Shown here: in pieces, positions 3,003 to 21,902 of the stretch
How positions within the stretch are numbered: the stretch's first letter is position 1
Layout: the number at the start of each line of letters is the position of its first letter
Assembly (NCBI GenBank): GCA_013215685.1
Contig: JABSQU010000003.1
Coordinates: 1-40,925 of the forward strand
Length of the DNA: 40,925 nt
Direction: 5' to 3'
DNA from: Mycoplasmatales bacterium
GTDB taxonomy: Bacteria > Bacillota_I > Bacilli_A > Mycoplasmatales > Metamycoplasmataceae
Position numbers and translations under genes: made by a program
The notes under the pieces: generated by a model
Seen by the model: the letters and a program-made list of their open reading frames with translations, nothing else
What the model was told of the DNA's origin: nothing
Databases searched by the model: none

Positions 3003-4100
3003 TTAAAATAAATTAGCAATATTTAAATTTCTCATTTCAATATATTTTTTTCTTTTTTGATTCAAAAAATCTTTAGGTATTTTTTTGAATTTTTCTTCAA
3101 CATAGTTATTAATAAATTTTTCTCCTTTAAAACATATAGGTTGAATTATTCCATCTTGATTATATGTAAAATAATTAGCATCAAATTTTCTATGTATTGA
3201 TTCTGGAAGTGGAATAAAATTATCTTCATCCTCAATCATTAATTCATATTTTTTTGTTGATTTATTTGAACGTAAAGCTTCAATTATTTTATCTCTAAGA
3301 TCATGAAATTCATATATATGACATTTTTGAAATTGATCAGAAGATTTGTATCCAAATGGAAATTTACTTATATTATTTATGTTTTTAGAAAATTTATTTC
3401 TAGATTTATTTGCAATAGAATGAGCTTTTCTTAAATCACTATTATATTTATTGAAATATCTTTTTATGTTCGAAAGATAATGGATTCAAGAATCCTGGTT
3501 TTTATTTTTTTGCATAAAAACAAAAGCAGATTCTAAATTTTTATTTAATTTTAAATAATCTTCAAATGATTTTTCTTCAGAAGAAATTACTAATACATCA
3601 AAATCAATTTTATATTTAGCGGTTAAATCATCAAAAAGAATGACAAAATTTTTGCCATTATTAAACAAGTTATTTATTACCATTTCTGCGGAGTTTGGTT
3701 TTTTTGCTTCCCCTCCTGGATTATTACCTTTTAAAACTGGCAAAATATTTTTTAGTGTTGAATTATATTGATTTCTATCGTTGAAATATTCTTCAACAAT
3801 TCTCATTTGCATCTCATTTAGAATTATTATTTTGTTTCTTATTCCTTTTTTAGGCCTTACTATTTGTTTGATTTTTAATTTATTAAATAATTCTTCTCTT
3901 CTTTTAAAATTTTTATTTTTGCTTTTGAATCAACTTTCAGTAGTATATTGATCAATTTGTAAGTTTGTAAATTTTATTTTTCAATTATATATAACACCAT
4001 ATTTATTAGATATAAATTCAATTTCTCCTTTAAATTTTGCTGCTTTTGTAGTTAAAAAGTTTGATCTAATAATTGGCATTCTAATCAAATATGATTCCAT
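3003..4100 (-). CDS. HNH restriction endonuclease, partner of the CpG-type methyltransferase
   Basis: 365 aa. The C-terminal third has an HNH (beta-beta-alpha metal) nuclease pattern: CHI at 260-262, then DEDNFIPLPESIHRKFD at 291-307 (Asn294 and His303) and an FTYNQDG turn. No clear PD-(D/E)XK motif was preferred, although DFDVLVISSEEK near residue 165 has that flavour. The gene is translated from AAAGGAT just upstream of ATG 4100, and its ATG overlaps the stop of the preceding frameshifted ORF (TAATG). Position downstream of a C5-methyltransferase makes a type II restriction enzyme the natural reading. Recognition site is not deducible here. Seen: motifs and linkage. Inferred: cleavage role. 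Confidence 0.72.
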
Positions 4101-4421
4101 TATTTAATCCTTTCCTGGTTTGCATTCAAAATAATTGCATAAATATCAAAAATTTCTTTTGTAGAAATATTACATTTTTCAATTATTTTAATATCGAATT
4201 TTTTTAATCTTTTTATTTATTTTTTTAAAGTCGGAAATGTTCTTAGCTTTAGCGATAACATTTCCACCGCCTTCTAGTCTCCTTATTCATATTATTGTGT
4301 CATTATCAATTTGATATTCTGTTCAAAAATTTTTGTAAATATCCCAAACACAAAAAATTATCATTTTTATTATTGAATAATTCTTTTCTATTTTTCTTTT
4401 TCAATCCAATTAAATAATTTG
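4100..4421 (-). pseudogene. Frameshifted small ORF between methyltransferase and nuclease genes
   Basis: Three overlapping minus-strand reading frames look like pieces of one protein of about 110 residues. The first covers roughly 4350-4416 (KKKNRKELFNNKND). The second is a 58-aa ORF at 4188-4364 (WTEYQIDNDTIIWIRRLEGG). The third runs from about 4205 to a TAA at 4100-4102 (KCNISTKEIFDIYAIILNAN) and overlaps the ATG of the nuclease gene as TAATG. The breaks lie near runs of A. The protein is not recognised. It could be a decayed third component of the restriction-modification operon, or an ORF with sequencing errors or phase-variable tracts. Confidence 0.5.
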
Positions 4422-5591
4422 TTATCTTATTTCCTTAAAAATTGCTTCTAAAACTTCAACCGATATTGAATTTCCGCAGGTATATATCATTTTAGTTTCA
4501 CTAAGATAATTCAATGAATTGACTTTATCATAATCTATTTTATTAAAACCCATATATCTATATGCTTCTCTTGGATTTATTCGCCTAATTTTTCCTTTTC
4601 AATTAATTTTTATTCTTGAATTTGCACCAGAGGCAGTTAATGTTGGTCCTGTGAAATTAGGATCATAAACATAAGCTTCTGAATTAAAAGATGAGTAATC
4701 GATTAATTTTGTTTTATTTATGTTTGATTTTGTTTTTTTGTATCCGCCAGGATCAATATCATATTTATCCAATGAAGGCATAAAATATTTTAAATTGGGC
4801 TCTTTATCTAATATTCTTTTGATAGGCTTGGGTTCAGATGTTTTGATTGGTAATTTTATTTCTTTTTCTAGTGATGAAATCATAAAAACTCTTCTTCTTG
4901 CTTGTGAAGAACCAAAATCACCTGCATTAAGAATTCCTATATTATTTTTATAGCCATATGATTCAAGTTTTTTTATTCATTTATTTCTATCTTTTTCAAA
5001 AGTTTTATTCATTAAAGCCGTAACATTTTCCATCAATAAATATTTAGGTAATTGATTTTTAGGTGTAAAATCAAGAGCTTTTTCAATTTCTCAAAGAAGT
5101 CCTGATCTTGTTCCAGATTTCATTCCTCTTTGTTTTCCTTGTTGAGATAAATCTTGACATGGAAATGAATATGTTAATAAATCCACATCTTTTAGATTTC
5201 TTTTATATAAATTTTGAACATCAAAAATATTTCCTTCTTCTTCAGAAGATTTAACAGCCTTATAAACAATTCTTAATTCATTAAGTCTTAATCTTTTTCA
5301 ATATCCCTTAGTAACTAGTTTTTTGGAATCCATTGATAGCGGCTTTGACTCAAGATAAGATATCATAATCTCTGAATTTATCTTATGGTCTATTGGTTTA
5401 ATTTTTAAATTATTATGTATTGCTTGATATGAAATTATTGCTGGAACATATCATTCTGCCATCCCAACAACTTTGTAATCTTTTTTTATATTATCTAATG
5501 CTCTCCTTTGTGCTCCTATTCCAGCAAAAGCTTCAAACAGTTTTAATTTATTTCCATTAAACTTAGTTTTATCCATCTTATTATTGCTCAT
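4422..5591 (-). CDS. C5-cytosine DNA methyltransferase, M.SssI-like (probable CpG specificity)
   Basis: 389 aa with all C5-methyltransferase landmarks: SAM-binding FEAFAGIGAQR (19-29), catalytic PCQDLSQQG with Cys145, MENV (187-190), FGSSQARRRVF, and C-terminal CGNSISVEVLEAI. It matches remembered M.SssI of Spiroplasma closely over its whole length, including the target-recognition region (KTKSNINK, VYDP-FTGPTLTASGANSR). M.SssI methylates CpG, so CpG specificity is a reasonable inference. A TATAAT box lies ten bases before ATG 5591; there is no Shine-Dalgarno. Followed by a frameshifted ORF and an HNH nuclease gene, and divergent from a recombinase gene. Residue identity is from memory and should be confirmed by alignment. 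Confidence 0.92.
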
Positions 5592-5691: not shown

Positions 5692-6423
5692 GTGACATAT
5701 AAAAAATATTTAGAAAAAATAAAAAACCATTCGCATAGAACGGTAGAAATTTACATAAAATATGCTTACAGATTAGAAAGGTATGGATTAGATTATAAAA
5801 GCATGTTAATAGATAGCCATGAAATATCAATTAATTCCAGAAGATTGATGATTTCTGCAATAAAAAGTTATTATAAATTTTTAAATGATAAGCGCCATAA
5901 AGAACTTGAGTTGCCAAAAAAAGAGATAATTGTTAAAGATTTTGTTTCATACGAAGAATATAAAGGTTATCTTTTAAAAATAAATAGAAAAACAAGAATG
6001 GGCTTTCAAAAAAGAATTATTATTCGCTTACTTTTTGAAACAGGAATCAGATCTTCAGAATTATTAAATTTAAGAAAAATAAATATCAAAGAAAATGAAC
6101 TTCATATATTTGGGAAAGGAAGAAGACAAAGAAAAGTGAAAGTATCTGCATGACTAAGAGAAGAATTGGAAGAATACACAAAAAATATTGATGATGTTCT
6201 TTTTAAATTTGGATATAAAAACCTATACAACAAAATAAATATTCTGGATGATACAAGAAAATTATCACCTCATATGTTCAGAAGAGGTTATGCTAAATAT
6301 TGTTTTGAAAAGAATATTAGTATTTATGACATATCTCTCTCAATGGGACATAGTAATATTGAAACAACAGCAGGTTATATAAAAAGAAGCAGTGAAGATG
6401 TTGAAATATATAAAATTTTTTAA
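5692..6423 (+). CDS. Tyrosine recombinase / integrase (XerC/D-like)
   Basis: 243 aa, reading through one TGA (Trp154). An N-terminal SAM-like DNA-binding domain (about 1-75) precedes a catalytic domain with the full set of active-site residues: Arg120 in ETGIRSSEL, Lys142 in GKGRRQRK, His194 and Arg197 in SPHMFRRGY, His220 in MGHSN, and nucleophile Tyr229 in TTAGYIK. It should be active. Start is GTG, six bases after TATTAT; an in-frame TAA at 5659 excludes a much longer protein. It sits between the methyltransferase (divergent) and the nuclease-helicase (convergent), so it could be a resident recombinase of the island or a phase-variation invertase. No att sites or inverted repeats were identified. 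Confidence 0.9.
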
Positions 6424-6441
6424 GATGGCTTAAGCTATCTT
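6422..6441. terminator. Bidirectional terminator between recombinase and helicase genes
   Basis: AAGATGGC-TTAA-GCTATCTT, an 8-bp stem with one G-U pair, flanked by T-rich DNA on the plus side and by A/T-rich DNA on the other. It includes the stop codons of both convergent genes. Confidence 0.75.
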
Positions 6442-8337
6442 TTCTTTTATATATTTGTTTAAATTTTCATCTTGCGCAAACACATGAGTTGATTTTGTTC
6501 CTCTTGTTAGCATGACTTTAATTCTATTCAAAAAATATCTTCGATTTAATTTATATGGATCTCTTCCTTTTAAATTTTTTGCTTTTGAATTTGGAGCTCA
6601 AGTTTGTGAGATGATAACTTCCTTAGCAAGTCTTTCTCTATGGAAAACAATTTCTCCATTATTAAATGTAAATACATTCGGTATATAAACAAAAATATTC
6701 TCAAATTCATAGCCTTGAATATGATTAAAGTAAGCAATAAATGATTTATGAGGCTTTCCAGTTAAAAATAACTTCCTGTCTGAAGAATATTTTTTAATTT
6801 TTTTACTATAAGTTGAAAAATTTTCTAAATTATTTTTTTTGACTTCGTCTGCTCAACTTTGATTTGGATTCCAGATAAAACCTACATCTCCTATTTTTAG
6901 TGTTGCTTTAGGCATTCCATTTTCATTGGCAGGTCCAGTATAATAACCATTAGACCATAAAGATGCTATTCTTGTAGAAGGATTTTTACTTCTTAGATTA
7001 AAATATCTATCTGTAAATTTATTTGCATGATTGTAACCTCTTAATTTATATTCTTGATTTTTATTTATGTACATTTTTTGTTCATATTCAATATCTCCTG
7101 AAATTGTGCTCTTCATGTAAAAAGTATGGTCTATTCAATCCAATAAGGATCTTTCACCTAAATTTCTAAAATTTTCGTGAATTTTATATTCTCTAACAAA
7201 ATGACCATGTTCGATTGCAATATCTTTAATTTCATCTTTAGTTATACCTTTTTTATTTATCACTTGGTCATCGTCAATAAAAATAATTGCAAATTTTATT
7301 TTTTCGTAGTTTCTTGAATAATTAATATTGCCGCTATCACGTCCAATTGCTTTATGCGCTTCATCAATAACAACTGCATCGTAATTTTTTCACATAGTTG
7401 CACCTGAAATATTTTGAGAAAGTGCATTTGAAGCTAAATTTTCTTTAAATGCAGCTCTTACTTCTTGACCAGGAATCATCATTTGCATAGACAATTCTAG
7501 TTCCGAAACAAATAAATGCATTAATTTAAAGGCAATAATAGTTTTTCCAGAACCAGGGTCTCCTGATATTAAAAACGTCATTTTTTCTTTTTTGTCTCAT
7601 TTTCTGATGTATCTTTCAATTTTTTCATAGATTATTTTTTGACTGCCTACTAATGTTAAACTATTAAAGTCCTCCATAACTAATTCTTTAAATTTTTTAG
7701 TTGGCATTCATTTTGCATTTTTAAAAAATTCAAATGCTTGATCACCATTTTTAATTATTGTTTGCTTTTCGATTGCTTTTGAAAGTTCACTTTCATCCAA
7801 AGAAGAATAGAGCTTTGCTCTATTAAGAATATCATAATATTCTCCTTTAAATAATGGAGAATGAGTATCTGTTAAATTATGTAAATATGCGGAAGATTTT
7901 ATATCTATTTTCCCATTCATTCCCATTTCATGATCTAATCTGAATTTATAATCAATAGCTTGTTCTGAAGGATGAGAATCAACGTATCTTCCAACTCTAA
8001 ATGAGTTGTATTCTTCTTCCGTTACATCTGATCATTGTTTAAGTTCTAATAACCATGCAGATGGTATTCCTTTTTTATTTTTACCTAATATAATAAAATC
8101 AATTCTTTTTTTAGATGTTGGGATATTAAATTCAATAAGAATTCTTCTATGATCATGTTCAGATTCTAAAAGTAAATTAGCAACCCTTGGCAAAGAATTA
8201 GCTCAAGAATTTTGCTCACTTTTTCCAACTTTTATTCCGAATTTTTTTATTAAATTTGAATTAATTTCAGCAACTAGTTTTCTAGGGTATTTTGAAGTGT
8301 TGATAAAATCTTGAACAGATGCATCATATATTACCAT
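6430..8337 (-). CDS. PD-(D/E)XK nuclease fused to DUF2075/Schlafen-type helicase
   Basis: 635 aa, using several TGA-Trp codons. The N-terminal part has a nuclease-like core with Asp80 (KKRIDFII) and Glu98-x-Lys100 (WLLELKQW). A helicase-type ATPase follows: Walker A GDPGSGKT at 259-266, Walker B VVIDEAH ending at residue 328, a FIDDDQ sensor, and a C-terminal motif VI-like VMLTRGTKSTHVFAQ. This is the DUF2075 architecture. Such nuclease-helicases occur in restriction and phage-defence islands, and this one lies beside a restriction-modification operon and an integrase. Defence is inferred, not shown. The ATG is six bases after GATAAT with TTAACA at -35, and has no Shine-Dalgarno. Confidence 0.85.
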
Positions 8338-8343
8338 ATATAA

Positions 8344-8371
8344 ATTATCGCAGATAGTCATTAGCTGTTAA
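8344..8371 (-). promoter_or_regulatory. Promoter of the nuclease-helicase gene (leaderless)
   Basis: TTAACA (8366-8371), 16-base spacer, GATAAT (8344-8349), six bases, ATG 8337. Its -35 overlaps TAACAT (8369-8374), which lies six bases before the divergent Nudix ATG, so the two promoters may compete. Confidence 0.65.
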
Positions 8372-9761: not shown

Positions 9762-9786
9762 AAAATAACCATGCAGGTTATTTTTT
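9760..9786. terminator. Bidirectional terminator
   Basis: Perfect 11-bp stem AAAAAATAACC / GGTTATTTTTT around a 5-base loop, ending in T runs on both strands. It lies between the stop codons of the convergent His-tail and LRR genes. Confidence 0.9.
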
Positions 9787-11236
9787 ATTTGTAGACAATT
9801 TTAAATCTAAAATATTTTTGTTCTAAATGGAATCAATCATTTATATTTGACTTGTCGACATTTTTAGATAAAATAATTTTTGTTTTTTCATTATTTACTA
9901 TACTTTGAAATGCAGAAATTCCTATATTTCGTATCTTTGGAAGATGGAGTGAAGTTATTTCGGAATATCTAATACCAAAAACACCTACTGATATTAAATT
10001 AGGAAAAAAAACATTTGTAAGTTTAGCGCCAGCGAAAGCACTATCGCTAATTATTTTAATACTTGGAAGATGAAGCACATGCATATATGAACAAGTAAAA
10101 GAATAAGGTCCAGCCTCCTCTAAAAGGGGAGCGTCTAAATTAAAAATGTTCGCTGTTTCAAATGCGCCTCGGCCAACTTTTATTGCTTTAGGAAGAGAAA
10201 GATCATATATTTCAGATTTTGCAAAAGCACTATCTTGAATTTCAACAGCTTTTGGAAGAGAAATTGTTTTTATGCCAGATGATAAAAATGCAAATGGTTT
10301 AATAATTTTTGCTTCTGGCAAATCAAGTGAAACTATTTTAGAACTGTAAAATGCTCCCGATCCTATAGTTTTAACTTTAGGTAAATAGACTTTCTTAAAT
10401 CTAAAATTTCTAAATGTATTGTCACCAATACTTACTGCATTTGGTAATTCCAATTTATAAATAGTTAAATTAGGATCTGTTCCATAAACATTTCCATTTT
10501 GTTTATATTTATTTAAATTTTTAGCAATACCGTCTGTATCATCTTTTGTAACTGAAGTAGCAAATGAAATTAGAGTGAATTTTATTTTGTCTCAATTTCC
10601 ATTTCCAAATATTCTATTTTTTTCATCTATGCTATTGAATTTTAAAGGCATTTTTACTTTTGTTGCTCTTTCATTCAAAATGTTTTTAAATGCATTGTCG
10701 TTTATTGTTTCTGCATTTGAAACATCCAGTGTTCCAATTTTTTCATTTTCATATTTATTTCCAATTACTTTATCAGCGATAACAAAAGTTTTACCTTCAG
10801 AAACGACACTGTCATCTACATATTCATCGTCAAGTTTCCAAGGTTCATTATGACTACCGTCATCTCCAGAACTTCCATCGCTTTGGCTGCCGCCTCCAGA
10901 GTCTCCTCCACCTTGGCTTCCGCCTCCAGAATCTCCTCCGCTTTGGCTTCCGCCTCCTGAATCTCCTCCAGAACTACTTCCACCACCAGAGTCTCCTCCA
11001 CTTTGGCTTCCGCCTCCAGAATTTCCTCCGCTTTGGCTTCCGCCACCAGAATCTCCTCCGCTTTGGCTTCCGCCTCCAGAGTCGGTTTTTTCTCCTTTTT
11101 CACTATTTCCGTTTTGATTCTTATCATTGCTATTAGTATTACTTGAATTGCTTCCGCATGATATGACTACCATTGATGAAGCAAAAGATGTTAAAATACC
11201 CAAAGATGTGACCATCATTTTTTTAGTTTTTTTCAT
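9785..11236 (-). CDS. Surface lipoprotein with Gly/Ser repeats and BspA-like leucine-rich repeats
   Basis: 483 aa. A lipoprotein signal with basic start (MKKTKK), hydrophobic core and lipobox VISC (Cys27) should anchor it outside the membrane. Residues about 50-125 are a Ser/Gly linker of some seven copies of a decapeptide close to GGGSQSGGDS. A module follows with DVSNAETINDNAF and KMPLKFNS...RIFGNGNW. The C-terminal half is BspA/TpLRR-type leucine-rich repeats of about 23 residues (LPKVKTIGSGAFYSSKI pattern), a fold used for host binding. It reads TGA as Trp at 10590 and 9833. AGAGGG precedes the ATG. It is the downstream paralogue of the gene at 11524-12657. Binding partner unknown. Confidence 0.9.
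10871..11083 (-). repeat. 30-bp coding tandem repeat, about seven copies
   Basis: Imperfect 30-bp units encode the Ser-Gly-Gly-Gly-Ser-Gln-Ser-Gly-Gly-Asp decapeptide in the lipoprotein. The units are much richer in G+C than the surroundings and differ mainly in third positions. Copy number could change by slippage or recombination, altering stalk length in frame. Confidence 0.9.
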
Positions 11237-11436
11237 TTAACCCTCTATTCTTTGAAATTAATTTAAAATTTTACTTATAAAGATTTTAATGATAATTAAT
11301 AAAATGAATTAAATAGAATATAAATCTACATTAATTCGCTTAAATTTAAATTTACAAAATTCAAATCCCCTTGCCTTAATTTTAACTTAATTAAATGAAT
11401 AAATAAATATTATTAACTTTGATATTTATATCCAAA

Positions 11437-11465
11437 AAATAATTAAACATAACGTTTAATTATTT
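11437..11465 (-). terminator. Terminator downstream of the second LRR lipoprotein gene
   Basis: Perfect 12-bp stem AAATAATTAAAC / GTTTAATTATTT around a 5-base loop, followed on the minus strand by a T run. The rest of the 287-base gap (11237-11523) is AT-rich and shows only the Shine-Dalgarno of the next gene. Confidence 0.8.
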
Positions 11466-11523
11466 AATGTTTTTATCTTGTTTTACAAGAGTTAAAGATA
11501 ATATTTTAATTAAAATTCATATT

Positions 11524-12657
11524 TTATATATATCTAAATGATATCTTTGATCAATTTCCTTCGCCAAATATGCTGTTTTTTTGTATTTTATTATCAAAAA
11601 TTTTAGGAATTATAACAATTGTGGTTTTTTTATTTATGATGTTTCTAAAGGCATGCCTTCCTATTTTTTTTACTCTGGATAAATGAAGTTTGGAAATTGG
11701 TGAATTTGCAAATGCACCTCTTCCTATATGCAATACTTTAGGCAAAAAAATATATTCAAGTTTGCTATTGTAAAATGCATTTAAATGAATTTCTTTTACT
11801 TTAGGGAGCGACAATTTCAATAAACTAGAGAATTCAAAAGCAGAAGATTGAATTTCAGTAACATTAGGGAGATTAAGGCTAGAAAGATTAGAATTTTCGA
11901 AGGCAAAATTTGATATTTTTTTAACTTTAGGAAGTGATAGGTAAGTCAACTTTGAATTATTAAAAGCTTTAATTCCTATTATTTTAACTTTAGGAAGTGA
12001 TAAGGAAGTTAGTGAAGAATCAAAAAAAGTATTGTCTTCTATAATTTTTACTTTTGGAAGATAAAGAAAATTTAAAGAAGAATTCTTGAATGCAGAATCA
12101 CAAATTTTTTCAACTTTAGGAGAAAAAAGAGAATTAACATATAAATTCTTAAAGGAATTTTCATTTATTTTTTTTGCTAGTGGAAGAGCAATTTTAGAAA
12201 TAGGATTATAAAATGAATTAAATTCCATCATATTATTTTTGAAATAATTTTCATTTTTAATGTCTCTTTTAAAAGAAATAACTGTAAATTTAATTTTGTT
12301 TCAATTATTTTTTCCAAATATTCTGTTTTTATGATATTCTAAATTAAATTTTAGAGGCATTATAACTTTTGTTTTGAATGAGTTTTTTATATTTTCAAAA
12401 GCTCCATCAGATATTTTTTCAGCAGACGAAATATCAAGATAATTCATTTTCATCTTTTTGTAAGAATTTTCAAGAATTTTCTTTTGATGAATAATAATTC
12501 TATCCAAATTAAATTTATACTCTTCTTTTAATTTTTCTCTAGAGTTTTTAAAAGATATTTTATTAAAATTATTCCCACAAGAAACAATTAATAAAATTCT
12601 ACTTGCACTTATAAACAAGCTTGATGATGACATTTTGATTCTATTAGTTTTTTCCAT
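11524..12657 (-). CDS. Surface lipoprotein with BspA-like leucine-rich repeats
   Basis: 377 aa. Lipobox IVSC with Cys27, the same position as in its neighbour. It shares the module DISSAEKISDGAF and IMPLKFN...RIFGKNNW with the gene downstream but lacks the Gly/Ser linker. About eight 23-residue LRR units follow (for example LSLPKVKIIGIKAFNNSKLTY), and the end WSKISFRYI echoes the inner module. AAAGGAG lies six bases before ATG 12657, so this start is preferred to the in-frame ATG at 12675. TGA is Trp at 12301 and 11551. The pair probably arose by duplication. Likely a cell-surface adhesin or ligand-binding protein; this is inference from the fold. Confidence 0.88.
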
Positions 12658-12741
12658 GAATTCTCCTTTTGGCACATTTTTATTATATTACTTTTATCAA
12701 TATATGTTTTAATATGATACAAAAAATTAATTGTGAATAAA

Positions 12742-21691: not shown

Positions 21692-21715
21692 TATAAATTT
21701 TAAAAAATTTATATA

Positions 21716-21870
21716 ATTCTTAGCTCCTCCGATAATCGGGAGATATATAAGTATTTCCTATATATCCATGACATCACTATACCTAGTAATTCATTCGGCT
21801 TTAACCATTTCATTAACTTCATAGAATGTCTTCTCTGTTAATTACTAATGCTTCAAGCACCTCTATTTAT
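21716..21870 (-). promoter_or_regulatory. Lysine riboswitch (L box) aptamer
   Basis: The minus strand has AATAGAGGTGC then AGTAA, the L-box 5' core, followed by GGTTAAAGCCGAA, CTAGG near the CTGGG position, and CGGAGGAGCTA at the 3' end, all in the expected order over about 155 bases. P1 is short (TAG/CTA plus flanks). Lysine binding would favour the downstream terminator and reduce permease expression. A TATAAT box at 21881-21886 places the transcript start just before the aptamer. Confidence 0.88.
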
Positions 21871-21902
21871 TGTTAAAATCATTATACACAAAAAAATAAG
21901 TT

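Follow-up and report, generated by a model that had tools for sequence, protein, structure and literature searches.

The CpG methylases M.SssI (Spiroplasma) and M.MpeI (Mycoplasma penetrans) are standard reagents and models for prokaryotic CpG methylation. In published work, the enzymes of mycoplasmas are taken to be orphans or to be directed at the host. In M. agalactiae, the CpG methylase MAG4250/MAG4260 is phase-variable through a poly(G) tract; it is entered in the accompanying table with no restriction enzyme, and is given as an orphan whose flanking genes are unrelated (PMC9465063). The literature already describes repeat-based methylase frameshifts in M. agalactiae, M. pulmonis, and M. 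crocodyli, and the residues that shape the CG contact have been defined in M.MpeI (PMC10899764).

The locus described here lies in the window, a stretch of 40,925 nucleotides (positions 1 to 40,925 of contig JABSQU010000003.1, assembly GCA_013215685.1) from a Mycoplasmatales bacterium. The source genome (925 kb, 72 contigs) is of the mycoplasma type, with TGA read as Trp; translation under table 11 fragments the open reading frames and was rejected in favor of code 4, which fits.

Gene content of the locus

On the minus strand, a methylase gene is followed by a spacer that holds a small frame, and then by a gene for an HNH protein (Table 1).

Table 1. Features of the methylase–nuclease locus and its neighbors in the window (code 4)
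Feature	Position	Strand	Evidence or remark
CpG-type DNA (cytosine-5) methyltransferase, 389 aa	4422..5591	-	M.MpeI full-length match, FPCQ motif, CG-contact residues
MAG4270-family HNH nuclease (putative), 365 aa	3003..4100	-	NF045952 E=7e-96, near-invariant H-N-H, model pLDDT 92.6
Small frame, 73 aa, TTG start, apparently frameshifted	4188..4409	-	Without relatives; no conserved system part
321-nt spacer, methylase stop to nuclease start	4101..4421	-	Peculiar to the window genome
XerA/C-like tyrosine recombinase, divergent neighbor	5692..6423	+	Also adjoins the pair in two close relatives
Schlafen group 3 helicase-domain protein, possible defense gene	6430..8361	-	Neighbor in two close relatives too

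The match between the methylase and M.MpeI (PDB 4dkj, E=1.3e-77) is full-length. The protein contains the C5-MTase fold (PF00145, E=7e-55) and carries the catalytic motif FPCQ at residues 143–146. All of the CG-contact residues (F302, S304, E305, G322, A323, S325, and R326, numbered as in M.MpeI) are kept, and the gene is a single open frame without a long slippery repeat. The intact M.MpeI-type recognition loops suggest that the enzyme places 5-methylcytosine on CG. A first-pass annotation of the window had described this protein as similar to M.SssI along its length and probably CpG-specific; the alignment, made against M.MpeI, bears out the similarity, and the conserved contact residues lend good support to the predicted specificity. 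The window genome also holds a second, split methylase (G000:C48:262-1545; L133), the N-terminal part of which is 43% identical to the window methylase.

The downstream protein belongs to the NCBIfam family NF045952, "MAG4270 family putative restriction endonuclease" (321 bits against a cut-off of 53, residues 4–358), and also matches Pfam HNH_2 at a score just under the curated cut-off (20.4 bits against 21, E=4.8e-4). Residues H261, N294, and H303 form its catalytic triad and are near-invariant among 82 family members; cleavage of DNA by this putative nuclease is probable. A structure predicted from an alignment of 37 sequences is confident (pLDDT 92.6, pTM 0.82) and divides into an N-terminal domain (about residues 1–245) and a C-terminal HNH domain (about residues 246–365). 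The HNH domain is the sole part with a match among solved structures, the best being VcaM4I (PDB 6yex, E=5e-3). The modeled N-terminal domain has no match in the PDB, whether to SRA, EVE, or other modification readers or to PUA, and may represent a new DNA-reading domain. The HNH nuclease that the first-pass annotation had placed downstream of the methylase is therefore upheld by the family match and the H-N-H residues. The same annotation had named homing or phage packaging relatives as the contrary case, and the relatives are not of that kind: a search of phage and viral records gave no match, and the family is named for a putative restriction endonuclease, so that such an origin was rejected.

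The small frame begins at a TTG codon 12 nt past the methylase stop, and has no real relative among 317 mollicute genomes; it was therefore dismissed as a conserved gene that might couple or control the pair. Its own stop falls 87 nt ahead of the nuclease ATG, so that coupling cannot run through it; to be continuous with the frame that terminates at the nuclease start (TAATG), it would have to be shifted by one base at a poly-A run. The spacer itself is peculiar to the window genome, since elsewhere the methylase and nuclease genes abut; the usual coupling of the two genes is here broken by 321 nt. An initial proposal of coupled translation through the small frame is thus contradicted by the gap, by the lack of relatives, and by direct abutment in other genomes.

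The recombinase and the Schlafen-type helicase (5692–8361) recur beside the pair in L038, L068, and L125, which are close relatives, and could mark a defense island. Site-specific inversion by the adjoining recombinase was considered and rejected, the inverted repeats being imperfect and chance-like in AT-rich DNA. Elsewhere in the window are a lysine riboswitch upstream of an amino acid permease (21713–21873; Rfam RF00168, 57.8 bits), observed here in a mycoplasma-type genome, and two BspA-type leucine-rich repeat proteins in tandem (9785–12675).

Linkage of methylase and nuclease across genomes

Across 320 genomes of the order, 88 loci were taken as high-scoring CpG-type methylases (M.MpeI-type profile matches of at least 185 bits). 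By our own count, a MAG4270-family nuclease lies directly adjacent and downstream in 80 of the 88, and the distance from methylase stop to nuclease start is −25 to +10 nt in 76 of 79 loci. Most of the eight loci without an adjacent nuclease have particular features: one (G239) is truncated where its contig ends; four (G060, two copies in G072, and G201) possess recognition loops that are altered or of another kind; and in two (G025 and G296) a nuclease gene lies beside methylase sequence on another contig. Only G210 is a real exception, with a CG-type methylase and no adjacent nuclease. A second sample of 80 named genome records shows the same association, in that the nuclease gene comes after almost every methylase with CG loops and after none of those from other phyla that lack the loops.

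The pairing extends to the best-known members of the group. The gene at L087, which we take to be M.MpeI itself, is essentially identical to the PDB chains and has a relative of the window nuclease directly downstream. In M. agalactiae, MAG4270 is the locus number next after the methylase MAG4250/MAG4260, and strain 14628 (L170) carries the methylase and then the nuclease gene; we found no mention of MAG4270 in the literature searched. In Ca. Hepatoplasma vulgare (L124 / L211), methylase and nuclease are fused in one open frame of 804 aa. The pair also occurs in one Gracilibacteria genome (L202:949-8782, TGA read as Gly), where it sits between cas12a and cas4/cas1.

Nuclease-family genes are also found beside other proteins. 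In L077, L082, L083, L084, and L096, one lies directly 3′ of an otherwise unrecognized protein of 310–350 aa, whose weak likeness to C5-methylases (CQSFS, IENP) may point to a partner methylase of a second type; and in L119 (1965–4988), a diverged member follows directly on a fused Dam methylase–DpnII endonuclease.

The linkage of cognate methylase and nuclease that is expected of a type II restriction–modification system is present. Because it recurs in about 80 genomes, with tight spacing and one fusion, the orphan label for these methylases may be disputed; each such "orphan" mycoplasma CpG methylase has the appearance of one half of a restriction–modification system. A functional link between the two genes, as supposed from the window alone, is well supported by these operon pairs, by the fusion, and by the absence of the nuclease where the loops are altered.

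Nuclease turnover under a constant methylase

The two partners evolve very differently. Within a species group resembling M. ovipneumoniae (G005 and G010–G015), pairwise comparisons give 26–110 nonsynonymous and 6–14 synonymous changes for the nucleases, against 4–14 and 6–17 for the methylases of the same pairs. The corresponding pN/pS values are 1.0–2.5 for the nuclease and 0.15–0.43 for the methylase, with nuclease values above 1 at p<0.05 (uncorrected) in only five pairs. The catalytic residues of these fast-changing nucleases are kept.

Outright replacement was also observed. Four pairs, or at least three separate comparisons once the lineages common to two of them are allowed for, lose DNA identity no more than about 12 nt from the methylase stop; the methylases are 85–96% identical and the nucleases 24–35%, and the replaced nucleases then resemble those of other lineages. 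L092 and L097 are an example of loci with swapped nucleases. The window shows a similar discordance. The methylase closest to its own, from Ca. Mycoplasma mahonii, is 71% identical and has the same Xer and helicase neighbors, and the nuclease that accompanies it is 23% identical to the window nuclease over 275 residues; more distant methylases (60–66%) carry nucleases 41–44% identical to that of the window. The new observation here is that the nuclease changes much more quickly than the methylase and, at the boundary between the two genes, has been exchanged while the methylases stayed nearly identical. Such replacement and rapid divergence under an unchanged methylase favor longer, varying CG-containing sites. 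As for the single site expected to be common to both partners of a type II system, the turnover suggests that nuclease sites may differ between members. The turnover could also reflect escape from anti-restriction proteins or a relaxation of constraint.

Methylase frameshifts and nuclease integrity

In a strict frame test of 84 loci, the methylase was complete in 36, frameshifted in 42 (a class to which L060 may belong), and cut by a contig edge in six. Most of the frameshifts coincide with simple sequence repeats (runs of GA, CT, G, C, or AT), as a rule around methylase residue 105. The nuclease is intact in all 36 loci with a complete methylase and in 39 of the 42 with a frameshifted one. 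Its survival in the latter indicates that it is not lethal there, in keeping with silencing through coupling. Stop and start codons that abut or overlap likewise suggest that methylase and nuclease are expressed together. Such silencing is not certain, because about half of the nuclease genes (42 of 79) are preceded by an SD-like motif.

CG content

The window contains 10.3 CG per kb, with an observed/expected ratio of 0.54 that is compatible with CG methylation and not diagnostic of it. The median ratio is 0.57 across the 15 genomes that carry an intact pair, compared with 0.74 across 18 that lack one (p=0.001, uncorrected for phylogeny), a depletion that may come from deamination alone. A search among NCGN words for a longer depleted CG-containing word found none that stands out.

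Discussion

We consider it probable, on the comparative sequence evidence, that these loci encode a two-gene restriction–modification system, in which a CG methylase is paired with a methylation-blocked nuclease that cuts longer, varied CG-containing sites, and in which both are silenced together by frameshift. The methylase would modify every CG of the cell's own DNA; the HNH nuclease would cut CG-containing sites, and methylation, as the linkage implies, would block this cutting. Since a two-base methylase protects any CG-containing site, the specificity of the nuclease could shift without a matching shift in the methylase and without harm to the cell, and different members would come to read different, probably longer, sites. 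In about half of the genomes, frameshifts of the methylase, mostly at a simple repeat, would through translational coupling silence the nuclease too. The depletion of CG in genomes with the system speaks for this reading; the lack of a prominent longer NCGN word, the G210 exception, and the broken coupling in the window speak against it. A more specific form of this reading, to which we give slightly less than even credence, makes the methylase an "umbrella": a CpG guard for the whole genome under which the nuclease is exchanged as a cassette and its site diversifies freely, with repeat frameshifts to switch both off.

The first-pass annotation had left the site of the nuclease between CG itself, a longer site, and modified DNA. 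A nuclease that cuts any unmethylated CG, with a true two-base restriction specificity, would follow the general pattern in which the partners of a type II pair usually recognize one common site. It would also accord with the tight linkage and the fusion, and with the depletion of CG in system-bearing genomes in which no NCGN context is prominent. Set against this, swaps between nucleases only 24–35% identical, with pN/pS at or above 1, would be unexpected if all members read the same two bases, and at the CG density of the window any gap in protection would be lethal. We therefore regard a two-base cutter as the less likely option, with perhaps a minor share of the probability, and the varied-site model appears to explain the swaps better; of the alternatives first raised, longer and varying CG-containing sites are favored. 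Modification-dependent cleavage of CpG-methylated foreign DNA, such as eukaryotic DNA, in the manner of a type IV enzyme, would fit the fact that VcaM4I, the solved structure nearest to the HNH domain, is a modification-dependent EVE-HNH enzyme. But the N-terminal domain has no modification-reader match in the PDB, and an operon of such a nuclease with an intact CpG methylase, found in 36 genomes and fused once, would be suicidal. This option is accordingly strongly disfavored and nearly excluded; we hold it very improbable.

It is also conceivable, if rather improbable, that the nuclease must be bound to the methylase to act, or that it has some other use, for example to release nucleotides from host DNA while methylation shields the cell's own. 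Mycoplasmas rely on salvaged nucleotides, a natural fusion exists, and the nuclease persists beside frameshifted methylases as if harmless alone. Its harmlessness is equally explained by the coupling of abutting genes, however, and an obligate complex would not easily allow swaps at such low identity. Least credible of all is a chance association of an orphan methylase with an unrelated HNH gene. The published description of the M. agalactiae locus would agree with it, but the linkage survey contradicts it: the pair recurs across several families and in a Gracilibacteria genome, tightly spaced and once fused.

The conserved nuclease partner makes a restriction role for these CpG methylases directly testable. 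If one methylase does serve nucleases with different sites, the arrangement would let new restriction specificities arise in modular fashion; otherwise methylase and nuclease must change simultaneously.

Comparison with known systems

M.MpeI and M.SssI are usually described as orphan or stand-alone enzymes, unlike the methylase of the window pair; yet M.MpeI has CG-contact residues identical to those of the window methylase, and a nuclease relative directly downstream of its gene as well. MAG4250/MAG4260 of M. agalactiae is a methylase of the same type, from which the window enzyme differs in being encoded in one frame without a poly(G) tract. The window nuclease is a full-length member of the MAG4270 family, the name of which gives a putative function only. 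With VcaM4I it has only the HNH part in common, and it is without the EVE domain. There is a parallel in organization with classical type II systems that use HNH nucleases, where, as in the mycoplasma pair, separate methylase and nuclease genes stand in one operon. Unlike these, the mycoplasma pair combines a predicted methylase site of only two bases with a nuclease that is interchangeable and fast-evolving under a constant methylase.
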